A stretch of DNA of 64,000 nucleotides from Desulforamulus ruminis DSM 2154 (GTDB taxonomy: Bacteria > Bacillota > Desulfotomaculia > Desulfotomaculales > Desulfotomaculaceae), in contig NC_015589.1 of NCBI RefSeq assembly GCF_000215085.1, positions 372,001-436,000 on the forward strand, given 5' to 3'. The notes beneath the pieces were generated by a model. It was given only the letters and a program-made list of their open reading frames with translations, did not search any database and had not been told where the DNA came from. Within the stretch, counting starts at the first letter, position 1. Every line of letters starts with the position of its first letter. A program made the position numbers and the translations under genes. This document shows, one piece after another, positions 47,038 through 54,215 of the stretch.

Positions 47038-47221
47038 TCCGCCGGATTATAAGGTGCTTAAATAAATTGTCGATCCTAATCAAAAATTGTTATTTTTTTC
47101 AGGCAATATAAAAAATATAACTGTTGCCAGATGTGTCTTTTTTTGCCATAATGGAAATAAGTATAACTTATATTATGCGTATATAAAGTAATTCATTGTA
47201 AGACATGAAAAAATTCCTTAA

Positions 47222-47333
47222 TATTACCTCCGAGCCTTTGAACCTGTGATATGAGATTATGGTTCCCCGGCCGTTAGGGTTCATCTGGAAACGGATGTGC
47301 CTCCCGTGTGGAAAGGATGGTAGGTTTATTTAG
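47222..47333 (+). ncRNA. Moco-type riboswitch aptamer, copy 1
   Basis: CTCCGAGCC (47228-47236), arm GAACC/GGTTC, GGCCG, then a GAAA-capped stem CATCTG/CGGATG and GCCTCCC...GGAAAGGA match the conserved layout of the molybdenum (or tungsten) cofactor riboswitch. It aligns with copy 2 along its whole length, and the arms covary (GAACC/GGTTC against AGTGCC/GGTGTT). A terminator follows at 47342-47374. The molybdenum or tungsten form cannot be told apart here. Formate dehydrogenase and moeA lie downstream. Confidence 0.85.
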
Positions 47334-47341
47334 CCATGCCG

Positions 47342-47374
47342 TAACCGCACATTTGTGTGCGGTTCTTCTATTTA
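47342..47374 (+). terminator. Expression-platform terminator of aptamer 1
   Basis: AACCGCACA, loop TTTG, TGTGCGGTT, then CTTCTATTT: a strong intrinsic terminator between the two aptamers. Confidence 0.85.
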
Positions 47375-47376
47375 TA

Positions 47377-47478
47377 GCGTTCTCCGAGCCATAGTGCCTA
47401 ATGCGTAATGTGATGGTGTTATGGCCGTATAAGGGTTAATCGGGAAACGGGTTAGCCTCCCTTTGGAAAGGAGAACAT
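47377..47478 (+). ncRNA. Moco-type riboswitch aptamer, copy 2
   Basis: CTCCGAGCC (47382-47390) to GCCTCCCTTTGGAAAGGAG, closed by the outer pair GTTCTCC/GGAGAAC. Conserved blocks agree with copy 1, including the GAAA loop. It is followed by its own terminator hairpin (47492-47547) and the 72-residue gene. Confidence 0.87.
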
Positions 47479-47491
47479 TCCACCTGTTACT

Positions 47492-47547
47492 AGGGTTGGT
47501 TTGTGCTGCTTTCTTTAAGGCACCCGCCAACCTTAATTTTTGTGTGG
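47492..47547 (+). terminator. Expression-platform terminator of aptamer 2
   Basis: GGTTGGTTTGTGC pairs with GCACCCGCCAACC (two mismatches), then TTAATTTTTGTG. It precedes the small gene, so both aptamers can stop transcription. Confidence 0.75.
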
Positions 47548-47573
47548 GATATAACTTTACGGCCGGAGGCGAC

Positions 47574-47792
47574 ATGATGACAACAGAGATTCAGGATACA
47601 GAAGCCATTTTAACCTTATCTTTAGTCATTGCAGATATGGCCACGCTAATCAATGATGATATTTTGAACAAAAATATTATTAACGTGACCAACCAGTTGG
47701 TTTGCAATGCCTCAGAGAAACCATTGACGAAAGATTTTTATACTACCATGGATAGTTTAGTAAATTTATTAAAACAGTACAAGACTAGTTAA
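47574..47792 (+). CDS. 72-residue orphan protein under Moco riboswitch control
   Basis: No family is recognised. Predicted all-helical: residues 8-28 form a hydrophobic helix (AILTLSLVIADMATLIND), and the rest is amphipathic, without cysteines other than one (VCNASE). No signal peptide. GGAGG is correctly spaced before the ATG, and another ATG follows directly. A terminator at 47891-47928 ends the unit, so tandem riboswitches control only this gene. It may have a role in molybdenum or tungsten cofactor handling; this is inference from context. Confidence 0.7.
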   Translation: MMTTEIQDTEAILTLSLVIADMATLINDDILNKNIINVTNQLVCNASEKPLTKDFYTTMDSLVNLLKQYKTS

Positions 47793-47890
47793 TTAAGTTT
47801 TGCCGGTCGACGACATAATGGACCTGAGAACGAAAGGCTTATTCGGGTTTGTAATTTATTATCGAACCTTTTATTTTAATAACAGTGACC

Positions 47891-47935
47891 AAAAGAAGGC
47901 TCCGTTTTAATTACCGGAGCCTTCTTTTGGTTAAA
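47891..47935. terminator. Bidirectional terminator
   Basis: AAAAGAAGGCTCCG, loop, CGGAGCCTTCTTTT between converging genes. Confidence 0.9.
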
Positions 47936-47955: not shown

Positions 47956-48603
47956 TTATTTTTTGTCGTTTTTTAGTTTTTGCTGCTGTAATTGAGTCCG
48001 GGCTTGGGCGAGAATTGTTTCCGGAAAGGCGTATTTAAATTGTATTTTAGCCCACTCTCTATAAGAGGGGCTAGCGTTAAAGAGAATTTCCAGGATGTTT
48101 TTCATTTCTTCAAGTTCTTTTTCGTCCGCTTCACCCGGTAGGATCTGCTGGACAAAAGATGATATATTTTCTGCCGAGATATCGGTAGCCTGCTTTTGCT
48201 TTTCCAACCGCACCTCAAGCTCTTCTCGAATAGCTTCCTTTCTTTGCTCCAACAAGTCAGCCTGAATTTGCAGGTGATGCGGCAGACTTTCCTGCAACGG
48301 TAGCCGGTGGTCAACCAAGAAGCTGTAATAGGAATGAACGGAGGGCTGGCTGTTTAGCTGTTCTAACAATTTCTTCATTCTATCCTCAGGAGATGTAAAC
48401 ATTTCTCCTTCGCCAGTCTTCAACCATGATTCTGAGACACCATACCGGGCACAAATATGTTTAAGTAAAGAGTCGGATGCTTTTTTAGAAGCGTTTTCGA
48501 TGTTTCCAACATGGCTTCTATCGATGCCTAAGTCCTGAGCCATCAATGTCTGTGTTAAACCAAGAGTTTCTCTTATTAACTTAAACCTCTGCGAAATATT
48601 CAT
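47956..48603 (-). CDS. XRE-family regulator with coiled C-terminal part
   Basis: About 215 residues. The N-terminal Cro/CI-type HTH reads LMAQDLGIDRSHVGNIENA. Residues about 100-150 form a charged coiled coil (LLEQRKEAIREELEVRLEKQ), probably for oligomerisation. Upstream are three identical 9-base palindromes phased by 30 bases, likely its own operators. Start 48603 has GAAGGA at a good distance. Target genes otherwise unknown; moeA lies about 500 bases away, divergent. Confidence 0.88.
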   Translation of the reverse strand: MNISQRFKLIRETLGLTQTLMAQDLGIDRSHVGNIENASKKASDSLLKHICARYGVSESWLKTGEGEMFTSPEDRMKKLLEQLNSQPSVHSYYSFLVDHRLPLQESLPHHLQIQADLLEQRKEAIREELEVRLEKQKQATDISAENISSFVQQILPGEADEKELEEMKNILEILFNASPSYREWAKIQFKYAFPETILAQARTQLQQQKLKNDKK

Positions 48604-48612
48604 GTACATTCC

Positions 48613-48681
48613 TTCTCAGAAACATTTTTTCAATAATCATAATTCTCAGAAACATATTATGATTGACTTGCTTTCTCAGAA
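48613..48681. promoter_or_regulatory. Three TTCTCAGAA operators spaced exactly 30 bp
   Basis: TTCTCAGAA occurs at 48613-48621, 48643-48651 and 48673-48681. Each is a palindrome with a central C (TTCT-C-AGAA), and the first two share the extension ACAT. The exact 30-base spacing (about three helical turns) puts them on one DNA face. They span the XRE leader and may cover its promoter and one firing towards moeA. Confidence 0.85.
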
Positions 48682-49109
48682 GCATTAAACTAGCTATAAA
48701 TAGGTTAAAAATACCAACTGCTCCCATAACTTTATTGCCTAGAATCGACGGCGGCAGTCCTTCGATACCGGGAGAAAGGAGGGCGAGAGCGGATTGGGGG
48801 TTTTGGTAAGGAAGCTTAAGAAAATTTATTGCAAAACCCCTAAAAATAGAAGCATAAAAATTAGGGCAGATGAAAGCCTGCCGTGCGAATGATCTATATC
48901 ATTAAATGTTGACATGTTTTCTTACTGATATTAACAAATTTTAAGTTTTGTGACAAGAGATTATGAAAGAACATTCTTTAATGTTATGCTAAATCCTTTT
49001 AGAAGTTTGGCAAGTAAAAGATTGATTTGTTTATGGATTATGGATTACCCACCAATAGCTTTAAACTGGATTTAAAAGGAGAGAAGCTAAAATAAATGGG
49101 GGAGCCACA
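48682..49109. other. Intergenic region upstream of moeA
   Basis: No gene and no third riboswitch aptamer was seen. A purine-rich block (48771-48800) and an AT-rich stretch precede the moeA ribosome binding site GGGGGAG. Confidence 0.4.
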
Positions 49110-50342
49110 ATGTATAAGGAAATACCTCTTGAAGAAGCATTAGCAATTTTACTAAACTACACAAAGCCCATTGGCTTCGATGAGGTTGATATTATCGACG
49201 CTTTGGGACGAGTTTTATATGAGAATGTTGTTGCCGGTTTTCCACTCCCTCCTTTTGACCGGTCTCCTTTGGACGGGTATGCTGTTATGGCTGAAGACAC
49301 ATTCACCGCCAGTAAAGAAACCCCGGTATTACTGAAAGTAAGCCAGAACATCTTTGCCGGGAACATGCCGTCAAAGCCCCTGATATATGGAGAAGCTGCT
49401 GCTGTGGCAACCGGCGCTCCGCTTCCCGCCGGAACAAACGCAGTTATAAAAATAGAGGACACGCAGCTTGTGGGAGATCAAGTTTTGATCTTTTCCCCAC
49501 TTAGACCGGGAGATAATTATATTAATAAGGGCGATGATGTTCTTGAAGGGGAAAAAATACTAGCCAAAGGAATGACCATTACTCCTGCTGTAATCGGTTT
49601 GTTGGCATCGATGGGCAAAAAAAGGGTGAAGGTTTTTAAAAAGCCGAAAGTAGCGGTTTTGACAATCGGAGATGAACTGGTTGGCATTGATGAGCCCAGG
49701 CTGCCAGGCAAAATATACAACAGCAATGTTTATGCGATTTCCGCTCAGATAGCTGAAGCGGGGGGAAGGGCGGTTCCTTATAGAAATACCGTTGATGACA
49801 GGAATCATATTGCCTTTTTGATCAACGACTGCTTAAAGGAAAACGATATGGTAATAACCACTGGCGGGGTATCGGTAGGCAAAAGAGATTATGTTAAAGA
49901 GTCGATCCAAATCAGTGGTGCCAATACTTTATTTTGGAAAGTGAATATAAAACCGGGTACACCCATTGTCTGTGGTGAGAACAATGGGCGATTGATCATT
50001 GGCTTGTCTGGAAATCCCGCTGCAGCCATGATTACCTTCTATATGCTGATCAGGCCTGTTCTGCAAAGCATCAGCGGCACCCGGCAGGTGGCTCTGCCCG
50101 ACGTAACGGCGACCATGGAGGAGTCCTTTAATAAGAAAAGCAAGCAGCGGCGTATGTTAAGAGCAAAAGTTTGCTGGAAGAACGGTGGTTATTATGCCGT
50201 TCCCTGCGGGACGCAAAGTCCGGGAGCTTTAAAGTCAATGCTGCACTGCAATGCACTGATTGATATACCTGGAGGGAGCGGACCGTTAAATATTGGGGAA
50301 AAAGTAAAAGCCATATTATTATCCCCAAACTATGTTTCGTAA
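49110..50342 (+). CDS. moeA: Molybdopterin molybdenumtransferase
   Basis: 410 residues. Blocks FPLPPFDRSPLDGYAV, the ATGAPLPAGTNAVIKIED, VAVLTIGDELV and TTGGVSVGKRDYVKE match MoeA, which inserts molybdate (or tungstate) into adenylylated molybdopterin. The C-terminal domain IV is present. It is followed 60 bases later by mobB and then by the formate dehydrogenase genes that need the cofactor. Firmicutes often carry several moeA paralogues, some specific for tungsten; this cannot be decided here. Confidence 0.95.
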   Translation: MYKEIPLEEALAILLNYTKPIGFDEVDIIDALGRVLYENVVAGFPLPPFDRSPLDGYAVMAEDTFTASKETPVLLKVSQNIFAGNMPSKPLIYGEAAAVATGAPLPAGTNAVIKIEDTQLVGDQVLIFSPLRPGDNYINKGDDVLEGEKILAKGMTITPAVIGLLASMGKKRVKVFKKPKVAVLTIGDELVGIDEPRLPGKIYNSNVYAISAQIAEAGGRAVPYRNTVDDRNHIAFLINDCLKENDMVITTGGVSVGKRDYVKESIQISGANTLFWKVNIKPGTPIVCGENNGRLIIGLSGNPAAAMITFYMLIRPVLQSISGTRQVALPDVTATMEESFNKKSKQRRMLRAKVCWKNGGYYAVPCGTQSPGALKSMLHCNALIDIPGGSGPLNIGEKVKAILLSPNYVS

Positions 50343-50401: not shown

Positions 50402-50941
50402 GTGGTGAACATCCCTATCATTACCGTGGTGGGAAAATCGGATGCCGGAAAAACAACCTTTATTGAAAAGCTGATTAAAGAGTTGAAATTTAGGGATATC
50501 AAGGTTTGTACCATTAAACATGATGTGCATGGATTTGATATTGACAAGCCTGGAAAAGATACCTGGCGCCATGCCAAAGCAGGGGCGGATACCGTAGTGA
50601 TATCCTCCTATGAAAAGATGGCCATGATTAGAAATGTTCAGGAGGAATTAACCCTGGACCAAATTGCCCAGATGGTTAGTAGTGATATCGATATTATTAT
50701 TACGGAAGGTTATAAAAGATCGAATAAGCCCAAAATAGAAATCAGTCGTTTGGAGAGAGGAACAGAACTTTTGTGTACTCCCGATGAGTTAATCGCAGTG
50801 GTGAGTGATATGCACTGGAACATCGGTATACCGGTTTTTGAACTTAATGACGCAGCGGGGGTTGCCAATTTGCTTCAGAGCCGGTTTAATTTAAAACCGT
50901 TTAAATATTTGGACAATTTAATTAACATCAGCAATTTTTAA
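50402..50941 (+). CDS. mobB: Molybdopterin-guanine dinucleotide biosynthesis adapter protein MobB
   Basis: 179 residues. P-loop GKSDAGKTT near 11-19, TIKHDVHGFDIDKPGKDTWRH and a terminal IIITEGYKRSNKPKIE are family features. MobB is a GTP-binding partner of MobA in forming the bis-guanine dinucleotide cofactor used by formate dehydrogenase. A GTG start at 50402 (or 50405) follows GGAGGTGA. MobA is not in the window. Confidence 0.93.
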   Translation: MVNIPIITVVGKSDAGKTTFIEKLIKELKFRDIKVCTIKHDVHGFDIDKPGKDTWRHAKAGADTVVISSYEKMAMIRNVQEELTLDQIAQMVSSDIDIIITEGYKRSNKPKIEISRLERGTELLCTPDELIAVVSDMHWNIGIPVFELNDAAGVANLLQSRFNLKPFKYLDNLINISNF

Positions 50942-51122: not shown

Positions 51123-54100
51123 ATGAGGAGACTAAGCAGGCGTGACTTTTTGAAAAATATTAGTCTTGGAACGGCCGGGCTAACGCTGGCAGCCGGTCCG
51201 GCCGCTGCCGAAGAATTTCACAGCAGGACTGCCGGGGAGAAACTACCTGCAAAAATAAGGAAATTAAAAGAAACCTATTCTGTATGTTGTTTTTGCGGCT
51301 GCGGCTGTGGGTTATTATTATATTCCAACGAAGAGGGTCGTCTGGTCTTTTGTGAAGGATATGCGGACAGTCCGATTAATGCCGGCACCATTTGTCCTAA
51401 AGGAAATGGCATCATTGAAGGAAATACGGTTATAAACAAAAAAAGGAACCGTGAAGCCAATAGACAGCGGGTTACGAAACCCCTTTACCGCGCTCCCAAC
51501 AGTGACAAGTGGGAGGAGAAAAGCTGGGAGTGGACCTTATCCGAGATTGCCAAGCGAATTAAAAAAACCCGGGATGAATCCTTTGTTGAAAAAGATGAGC
51601 AGGGCGTAACGGTAAACAGAACCACCGCCATAGCCCACACAGGTGCTGCGGCTCTTGATAATGAAGAGATTTACTTATTGCACAAAATGTACCGGGCCTT
51701 GGGCGTCATTAATATTGAACACTGCGCCCGTCTCTGACACTCGTCCACGGTAGCCGGTCTGGCTCCCAGTTTTGGACGCGGAATTATGACTAATCACTTT
51801 ACTGATTATAGAAATGCCGATGTAATCTTAATCATTGGTTCCAATACGGCGGAAAACCATCCCATGGGCATGAAATGGGCCATGAAGGCCAAGGAAAAAG
51901 GGGCCAAACTCATTGCCGTTGACCCCAGGGCCAGTAAATCGGCCAGCATGTGCCATGTCCATGCGCGTCTGCGCCCGGGTACGGATATCGCCTTTGTTAA
52001 CGGAATGATTCACTATATTATTGAAAATGATCTCTGGTTTAAAGAGTATGTATTAAATTATACCAATGCAAGTTTTCTGCTAAATCCGGGATATAAGTGT
52101 GACGAGGGTATCTTCTCCGGATTGACCGAAACAGACGGAAAACTTAGTTATGATACCTCCACCTGGCAATACCAAATGGAGGGAGAGGAAATTAAAAAGG
52201 ATCCCACCTTACAGGATCCCAATTGCGTTTTCCAGGTTCTTAAAAGGCATGTCAGCCGTTATGATATTAAGACAGTCTGTCAAATTACCGGAACTCCAGA
52301 GGACACCTACAGAAAGGTCTGCGAGATGTATGCCGCCAGCGGCAAGAGGGACAAAGCCGGATGTGTCATCTATGGCATGGGGATAACCATGCATTCCGTG
52401 GGTACGCAAAATGCCAGATCCATTTGTATACTGCAGCTTCTTCTCGGGAATATGGGCATCCCCGGCGGTGGGGTGAATGCTCAGCGTGGAGAACAAAACG
52501 TTCAGGGTTCCACGGATATGGCCATGTTAAATCACTATTTGCCCGGTTATCTGGGGATGATTTATGCCGCCAAGCACAAAAACCTGGCACAGTATCTCGA
52601 GGTAGAAACACCTAAAACCGGTTATTGGTCCAATAAGCCCAAATTTTTAATTAGTCAGTTAAAAGCTTGGTTTGGCGAAAAGGCCACCAAAGAAAATGAT
52701 TTTTGTTATGACTGGCTGCCCAAACATGACGGTAAAAACCGCTCGTATATGAGTTTGTTTAATTATATGGACGAGAAAAAAATCAAAGGTTTTATTGTAG
52801 CGGGACAGAACCCTTCTGTAGGAGGCCCGTCTACGGTGCAGGCCAACCAAGCCATGGAAAACCTGGATTGGCTGGTGGTTCTCGACATTTTTGAAATTGA
52901 GACGGCGGCCTTCTGGCAAAGGCCGGGAGCAGATCCAAGTAAAATTAAGACTGAAGTATTTTTACTGCCTGCGGCCATGTCCTTTGAAAAAGAAGGTTCG
53001 CTAACCAATGCCGGGCGATGGGTACAATGGCGTTATAAAGCGGTCAATCCGCTGGGAGAAGCAAAGTCCGACCTCTGGATTGTTCATAATCTCTTTAAAA
53101 CCATTCGTAAGGAATATGAGAAGGGCGGTAAATTCCCCGAGCCAATTTTAAATATGGTATGGGATTATGATAAGCCTGGTGAAGAAGAGCCGGATATTCA
53201 CAAGGTGGCTGCTGAAATTAATGGTTACGAAGTAGCCACTCAAAAAGTGCTGCCCGGTTTTGCCAAGCTGGCGGATGACGGTTCTACTGCCTGCGGCAAC
53301 TGGGTTCTCAGTGGCTATTGGGCGGAGGACCCGGAGGCCAAAGTGCCGGCCTGCCAGCGCCGGATTAACAGAGATCCGTCGGGTTTGGGCGTGTTCCCGC
53401 AATATGCCTTTTCTTGGCCGGCCAACCGCCGAATTGCCTATAACCGCTGCTCCGCCGATCCTGCAGGCAACCCCTGGAATCCTAATAAGCCTTATATGCG
53501 CTGGGATGCCGCAGCCGGCAAATGGATAACCCCCGATGTGCCTGACTTCAAGGCTACAGAACCGGCCCCGGAACCCGGCGCCGATCCAATACCGGTACCG
53601 CCGGAGAAGTCGGCTGTGGATGCTTTTATTATGTCGGAGGATGGTCACGGACGTTTATTTGCGGTCAAGGGGTTAAGCGACGGTCCCTTGCCGGAGCATT
53701 ATGAACCTTTTGAGAGTCCTTTTAGGAACCTGATATCAAAACAGCAAAATAATCCCATGGCACTTACCTTTAAGAGTGGCATATTCAGTAACTTAGCAGA
53801 GATCGGTAGTGAAAAATATCCTTGCGTAGCCATTACGGTTCACGTTGTGGAACACTACCAAAGTGGTGCAACTACCCGGAATTGCCCCTCCTTAGCTGAG
53901 ATCTCAGCGCATATGTTTGTTAACATTTCGCCTGACTTAGCCCAAAGCATTGGGGTTAAGAACGGAGAGGATGTGATTGTGGAATCGGCTCGAGGCCAAA
54001 TAACCTGCAAGGCAGCGGTGAACGGCGTATGTATACCGCTAACCGTTAACGGCAAGAAAACCGAAATGATTTCTATGCCTTATTCCTGGGGATTTAAAGG

Positions 54101-54215
54101 CTTGACCACAGGAGCCTCGGCCAATGATTTGACTCCTTCCGTAGGAGACCCGAACAGTAACATTCCGGAATACAAAGCATTTCTTTGTAACGTAAGAAAG
54201 GCGAAAAAGAGTTAA
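51123..54215 (+). CDS. fdhA: Selenocysteine formate dehydrogenase, catalytic subunit (TAT-exported)
   Basis: One gene of 1030 codons read through an in-frame TGA (51735-51737) as selenocysteine 205, in the family motif R-L-U-H-S-S-T-V. Before it is the [4Fe-4S] motif CCFCGCGCG with CPKGN; after it the molybdopterin oxidoreductase core and a C-terminal molydopterin-binding domain (NGEDVIVESARGQI). The N-terminus is a TAT signal (SRRDFLK), so the enzyme faces outside. It resembles FdnG/FdoG-type enzymes (about 1015 residues). It forms an operon with fdhB, an NrfD-type subunit and fdhE. The two apparent halves (51123-51737 and 51786-54215) are one gene, not a frameshift. Confidence 0.96.
51735..51780 (+). 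promoter_or_regulatory. SECIS element directing selenocysteine at UGA
   Basis: Right after the UGA, the hairpin AGCC-GGTCT-GGCT (51752-51764) has the GGTCT apical loop found in the E. coli fdhF SECIS. It lies 14 bases downstream, as expected for SelB-dependent bacterial SECIS. Lower stem pairing was not verified. Confidence 0.85.

Follow-up and report, generated by a model that had tools for sequence, protein, structure and literature searches.

Two RNA elements of the same kind stand one behind the other in front of a 72-amino-acid (72-aa) orphan gene of Desulforamulus ruminis DSM 2154. What does this doublet sense, and what does it control? A preliminary description of the window, by which we mean the whole stretch of 64,000 nucleotides (64 kb) analyzed here, had read the region as tandem Moco-type aptamers at positions 47222-47547, each with its own terminator.

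Two complete Moco-family aptamers share one leader

The window was searched with Rfam, in which the Moco family is represented by RF01055, a covariance model that scores sequence and structure jointly. Two matches were obtained on the plus strand, aptamer A1 at 47216-47334 (67.6 bits, E 4e-14) and aptamer A2 at 47370-47489 (76.3 bits, E 1.1e-16), with E values computed for the 64-kb window. Both are full-length to the model (positions 1-135) and exceed its gathering score of 36 bits, so that the claim of a Moco-type tandem was borne out. Nothing besides A1 and A2 was above the cut-off in the Rfam search of the window, and admitting RF01055 matches up to E 1 between 47000 and 47800 returned only these two. 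The conserved core is kept in both copies. Several pairs in P2 of A1 are non-standard. The gap between the aptamers measures 35 nt, contains no open reading frame (ORF) and is filled by a terminator-like hairpin.

Upstream on the plus strand lies a promoter-like match to the consensus at 47124-47152 (TTGCCA-17-CATAAT, with a TG preceding the -10 element). A promoter-consensus scan of a 2251-bp region gave 11 such sites, with 5.5 expected. A hexamer pair of this kind (TTGCCA or TTGCTA, 17-18 nt, then CATAAT, TATAAT or AATAAT) is similarly placed 5' of the RNA in all five genomes compared.

Terminators and a candidate antiterminator

A terminator-like hairpin was found 3' of each aptamer by scanning and folding, as the preliminary description had proposed, and its coordinates agree with the aptamers and hairpins found here. 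Terminator 1 (47343-47373, plus strand) is made of AACCGCACAUUUGUGUGCGGUU and a U-rich tail; its hairpin (47343-47364, -12.6 kcal/mol) is followed by CUUCUAUUU. Terminator 2 (47491-47544, plus strand) has a hairpin at 47491-47535 with a folding energy of -19.8 kcal/mol and the tail AUUUUUGUG. This hairpin has an internal loop and was absent from the simple hairpin scan; it was recovered by folding. Its tail is U-rich (6 of 9 positions), and 29 nt separate the end of the hairpin from the ribosome binding site GGAGG. The hairpins behind A2-type copies are the stronger ones; in 12 such copies, the single one of genome G027 among them, their energies lie between -16.9 and -33.1 kcal/mol, and 10 of the 12 are followed by U-rich tails (4 to 8 of 9). 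The two without a U-run are those of the window locus in G008 (1/9) and of a second tandem locus in the source genome (2/9).

These two hairpins bear on the idea that A1 stops transcription and A2 chiefly masks the ribosome binding site. In the folds, AGGC(G) within a purine-rich stretch 5' of the start codon pairs with GCCU or CGCCU, which would suit such masking. The U-rich tail of the window A2 hairpin and its distance from GGAGG argue against this division of labor, and we consider it unlikely.

For A1, an antiterminator is possible at 47306-47350 (plus strand). Here GUGUGG (47306-47311), in the 3' part of the aptamer, would pair with CCGCAC (47345-47350) in the 5' arm of terminator 1, extended by flanking pairs. 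Each copy was compared with 1000 dinucleotide shuffles. The window antiterminator reached -15.0 kcal/mol (p 0.035). The pairing GUGYGG-CCGCAC was present in 11 of 11 A1 copies, from the window locus in four genomes and the second locus in seven. Energies over these copies ran from -15.0 to -19.5 kcal/mol, each with p 0.006-0.035, the rows being related and so not independent. The antiterminator duplex had a lower energy than the terminator hairpin in 11/11, in a comparison of related rows and of energies from different routines. Folding of the 11 A1 segments without the P1 5' strand gave the terminator as minimum-energy structure in eight, the window included, and the antiterminator in three; with whole leaders the numbers were seven, again with the window, and four. 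As the minimum-energy folds favor the terminator, the ON state requires folding in transcription order. If both strands of an antiterminator are transcribed ahead of the terminator's 3' arm, it could still prevail co-transcriptionally. An alternative A1 antiterminator, a hairpin in which the linker pairs with the 3' strand of P1, was rejected, since it coexists with the terminator in most folds.

No comparable signal was obtained for A2. In the window the A2 antiterminator was not above shuffles (p 0.306), and p fell below 0.05 in none of 13 second or A2-type copies (p 0.152-0.874; the G027 single and the second G004 copy included). A pairing of the aptamer sequence GGAAAGGAG with the terminator loop GCUGCUUUCUUU looked plausible by eye and failed against shuffles. 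Pairing above shuffles was likewise missing in two single copies of the source genome (p 0.216 and 0.950) and, in G004, in the leading copy of a tandem that has an aldehyde-oxidoreductase-type gene downstream (p 0.835). The characterized E. coli member of the family is an OFF switch (PMC2408646). Judged from these pairings, there is some support for the OFF direction in A1; for A2 the same direction is weakly assumed.

Both copies lack stem P3

The family has been split by stem P3, members with P3 being assigned to the molybdenum cofactor (Moco) and those without it to the tungsten cofactor (Tuco); P3 is missing in 58 of 176 examples, and direct binding tests with the cofactor were called impractical (Regulski et al. 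2008, PMC2408646). In both window copies the P3 of the model is deleted, leaving GGCC-GU-UAGGG in A1 and GGCC-GUAU-AAGGG in A2. A1 and A2 are thus of the P3-less type, the proposed tungsten-cofactor (Tuco/Wco) sensor. Molybdenum for one copy and tungsten for the other finds no support under this rule, as neither has P3, and this part of the earlier suggestion that the two copies read different signals was dropped.

The source genome holds eight RF01055 copies, two with P3 (at 549135 and 551304) and six without. Downstream of the copy at 549135 lie a phosphatase-like and then a modA-like ORF, both named by eye, and the copy at 551304 is followed by modA and modB, each over its curated cut-off. 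One P3-less copy precedes two tupA-like genes, one precedes molybdopterin genes, and four make up two tandems. The tupA-like proteins have TupA as their best model (2.8e-72 and 3.4e-54), yet score 243 and 184 bits against a curated cut-off of 400. With P3-bearing copies near mod genes for molybdate uptake and a P3-less copy before tupA-like genes, the distribution fits the published Tuco type, which is linked to genomes with tungstate uptake genes. The P3-less copy in front of molybdopterin genes, at locus L076:5515-9521 (G000:C1:535514-539520), precedes a gene with a molybdopterin-binding domain and a molybdopterin-dependent aldehyde oxidoreductase, which weakens the rule that no P3 means tungsten; P3 might not be the entire rule for molybdenum and tungsten. 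As a side observation, the P3-bearing copy 5' of modAB (L077:2305-2435) scores just 42.6 bits with several non-standard pairs and may be decaying.

The tandem joins two aptamer lineages

Tandem arrangements of this family are on record. Copies in tandem were described in G. metallireducens and S. wolfei, the latter also having a triplet (PMC2408646), and a later survey lists 13 Moco doublets, two triplets and Wco tandems (Sherlock et al. 2022, PMC9481103). Within the genus, the view that tandems are rare does not hold. Nine genomes contained 56 RF01055 matches (54 above the cut-off), and 12 tandem pairs, defined as copies on the same strand with a gap under 70 nt, account for 24 of the 56 and occur in seven of the nine genomes.

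A tree was built from 45 aptamers of the genus and G027. In it, a branch put the 11 A1 copies on one side and the 11 A2 copies on the other (99/99; none of 500 shuffles as low). Ten of the 11 A1 copies grouped with 10 of 11 aptamers labeled tup (98/94). The 11 A2 copies grouped with six aldehyde-oxidoreductase-linked aptamers, one tup-labeled aptamer of G004 and the G027 copy (99/99). The labels tup, xdh and ald were assigned by inspecting translations, those of the source genome alone being checked by family search. The A1 copy of G007, which is part of the count of 11, sits on a long branch beside P3-bearing copies with almost no support. After 28 rows from other genomes were added, A2 stayed whole (98/79) and A1 needed two changes; in this enlarged tree, row L020 duplicates the G027 copy, and L009 and L023, which have ModA and ModB matches, carry the label tup via weak TupB matches. 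Local duplication as the origin of the tandem was rejected, since the 45-row tree puts A1 and A2 in separate lineages.

The lineages leave some room for another two-signal reading. A1 and A2 might sense different ligands, for example different forms of the tungsten or molybdenum cofactor, with expression only if both are low, and their separation over two loci (99/99), with A1 beside tup-labeled and A2 beside aldehyde-oxidoreductase-linked aptamers, agrees with this. Against it, both copies lack P3 and share the conserved core; moreover, A1 no longer forms one side of a branch with the 28 additional rows, and lineage may mirror position in the leader instead of ligand. We regard such a gate as improbable.

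Judging from sequence comparison, the A1-A2 pair is a cassette of two lineages that recurs at two loci, the window locus with the 72-aa gene in four genomes and the second locus in seven. In the source genome the second tandem comprises two RF01055 copies in A1-A2 order at G000:C1:553892-554165 (locus L077:4893-7233; G000:C1:553892-556232). It shares the 35-nt spacing and the terminator 1 design with the window tandem, and in the 45-row tree the aptamers of the two loci are intermingled. It differs from the window tandem in its target genes and in an A2 hairpin that lacks a U-run. Behind it lie a 131-aa orphan, without a match in Pfam or NCBIfam, and then an L-glutamate gamma-semialdehyde dehydrogenase gene. 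The dehydrogenase gene follows the second-locus tandem in five of seven genomes. It is whole in G000, G005 and G008, truncated at a contig end in G002 and fragmented in G003; it was not seen behind the tandem in G004 and G007. In G003 (L090:1195-2106) it consists of several short ORFs downstream of retained aptamers.

A conserved small gene lies behind the doublet

The ORF downstream of terminator 2 (47574-47792, plus strand) encodes 72 amino acids and is preceded by the ribosome binding site GGAGG at 47565-47569 (plus strand). Around this site, GGAGGCGA shows no variation across four aligned leaders. A single-sequence search found the ORF in five of 150 genomes, namely the source genome (G000), G002, G005, G008 and G027; the two named matches came from Desulforamulus aeronauticus and from an uncultured Desulfotomaculum. 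When a profile was run against 398 genomes of the phylum, partly overlapping the 150, only two weak matches inside long ORFs were added, in G150 (E 4.1e-4, 823-aa ORF) and G285 (E 1.4e-4, 443-aa ORF), which we judged to be chance. Comparison of the window ORF with its four homologues over 66 codons gave dN of 0.15-0.23 and dS from 0.97 to saturated. As dN is well under dS, the 72-aa ORF is a real gene under purifying selection.

The protein had no match in Pfam and PHROGs, and two NCBIfam matches (E 0.065 and 0.072) were discarded as far below the cut-off. A structure model from three sequences predicts a three-helix bundle with medium confidence (pLDDT 74.6). Searching the PDB with this model gave no fold match under E 0.001 (best 1.1).

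An RF01055 RNA lies directly 5' of the 72-aa gene in five of five genomes, in tandem in four and as a single A2-type copy in G027. That one copy suffices in G027 would suit a second copy that is redundant and adds no function. We give this very little credence, given that A1 and A2 are not mutual closest relatives and that both copies are retained in four of the five genomes with the 72-aa gene and in seven at the second locus.

The riboswitch transcript heads towards the 3' end of a convergent gene for an XRE-family regulator, and an enrichment of Moco riboswitches among those that act in antisense has been reported (24 antisense, 834 sense; PMC9943018). The tandem might on these grounds act on the XRE gene as an antisense RNA, with the 72-aa ORF being incidental. 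The purifying selection on that ORF and its conserved ribosome site speak against this, as does a long hairpin, by eye a possible terminator, at 47888-47931 between the 72-aa ORF and the XRE gene in the window. We consider antisense action highly unlikely.

An XRE regulator and a formate dehydrogenase operon accompany the gene

The convergent gene (47956-48609, minus strand) encodes an XRE-family DNA-binding regulator (HTH_19 3e-10, HTH_3 6.1e-10). Among 60 genomes searched, close homologues (63-73% identity) were found in exactly the five genomes that carry the 72-aa gene; weaker matches (32-44% identity) in two further genomes were taken as different proteins. Gene order is the same in all five, with the RNA, the 72-aa gene, the convergent XRE gene, moeA, mobB, two adjacent fdhA ORFs and fdhB. 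Genes of the relatives were named by likeness to the window genes, and in G027 mobB is missing from the ORF list.

On the plus strand of the window, moeA lies at 49110-50342 and mobB at 50402-50941. MoeA has a TIGR00177 domain above the cut-off, and its best whole-protein model is a molybdopterin biosynthesis protein (E 1e-104), under that model's own cut-off; MobB is above the cut-off of TIGR00176. The gene for the formate dehydrogenase alpha subunit, fdhA (51123-54215, plus strand; TIGR01553 above the cut-off), has one in-frame TGA. This codon (51735-51737, residue 205, HCARL-U-HSSTVAG) likely encodes selenocysteine, and relatives show a similar gap between two ORFs.

Three operator-like TTCTCAGAA repeats with a 30-bp period fill positions 48613-48681 (plus strand) in the gap between XRE and moeA. 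Their paired spacing is unique in the 3.97-Mb genome, where it gave two overlapping matches, and a reversed control pattern gave none. Taken by itself, the 9-mer does not exceed chance in the window, with six matches against 3.10 expected; six were reached by 10 of 100 shuffles. The array accounts for three of these matches and the other three are scattered, with none at the tandem promoter. The repeat block aligns well across the five genomes; the exact core CTCAGAARCAT has three copies in the source genome, two in G008, one each in G002 and G005 and none in G027. A promoter-like sequence directed towards moeA (TTGACT-17-TAAACT, 48663-48691, plus strand; 9 of 12 consensus matches) overlaps the third repeat. 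A further conserved block (CTTACTGATATTAACAAATTTTAAGTTTT) lies 5' of moeA at 48915-48960 and is similar in G000, G002, G005 and G008.

No aptamer was found directly before the moeA-mobB-fdh operon of the window. The closest fdh operon outside the five genomes, that of G043 (79%), also has moeA in front; no XRE-like match, nearby RF01055 or 72-aa gene was found with it. In the vicinity of a second fdh operon of the source genome there was again no XRE, RF01055 or 72-aa gene. The arrangement suggests that the operon has a regulator close by and that the 72-aa and XRE genes are kept together as a pair. That the 72-aa protein acts on XRE is our guess from position, co-occurrence and size.

A proposed OFF doublet and its possible relay

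We favor, with reasonable rather than high confidence, a doublet of complete P3-less Moco-family riboswitches, presumed sensors of the tungsten cofactor, that serve as OFF gates for the 72-aa gene. RNA polymerase starting at the 47124-47152 promoter would encounter two gates in series. With ample cofactor, A1 would close P1 and P5 and withdraw GUGUGG from the antiterminator, and terminator 1 would form. Transcripts that pass it would then face A2 and the stronger terminator 2, so that only at low cofactor would transcription get to the 72-aa gene. This would make the tandem an OFF switch, pseudo-cooperative in the published sense. We infer the identity of the ligand, the OFF direction and the forming of the antiterminator first in transcription, as well as, by the reasoning in PMC9481103, a steeper, pseudo-cooperative response from the two switches.

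The 72-aa protein would most likely help to adjust the moeA-mobB-formate dehydrogenase operon under tungsten-cofactor shortage, as far as neighborhood and co-occurrence tell. A more specific relay, in which the A1-A2 doublet gates a 72-aa helical protein that binds an XRE repressor and thereby switches the moeA-mobB-selenocysteine fdh operon, is possible but doubtful.

The window element resembles the RF01055 Moco/Tuco riboswitch (PMC2408646) in its full-length model match, its P3-less type and its tandem arrangement. It differs in its target, which is a 72-aa orphan and not a recognized cofactor, transport or enzyme gene. With the pseudo-cooperative tandems of PMC9481103 it has in common that one class occurs twice, each copy here with a hairpin behind it, the published ones having their own expression platforms. 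Unlike those tandems, as far as the accessible part of that paper describes them, the window copies belong to different lineages and have dissimilar platforms, and the 72-aa gene is not among the targets given there (hydrogenases, arsenic response proteins). Within the open-access literature, nothing was found on the 72-aa target or on a riboswitch-to-XRE relay. The switch itself is a known device; the 72-aa family and the XRE link appear unreported in that literature.

The doublet is therefore one more case of a known class, and its target may be what matters, an orphan family that among the genomes searched occurs only behind an RF01055 RNA and next to one regulator. If the relay is true, a shortage of cofactor would be signaled by an RNA, through a small anti-regulator, to one operon, which could be a route by which a cofactor-sensing RNA controls an operon at a distance. 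Such a route may help to explain why tungsten-type tandems stand before seemingly cofactor-unrelated genes, Wco tandems having been described upstream of genes without a link to tungsten cofactor synthesis (PMC9481103). Two lineages in one leader also provide a natural pair for asking what beyond P3 sets the specificity for molybdenum or tungsten.
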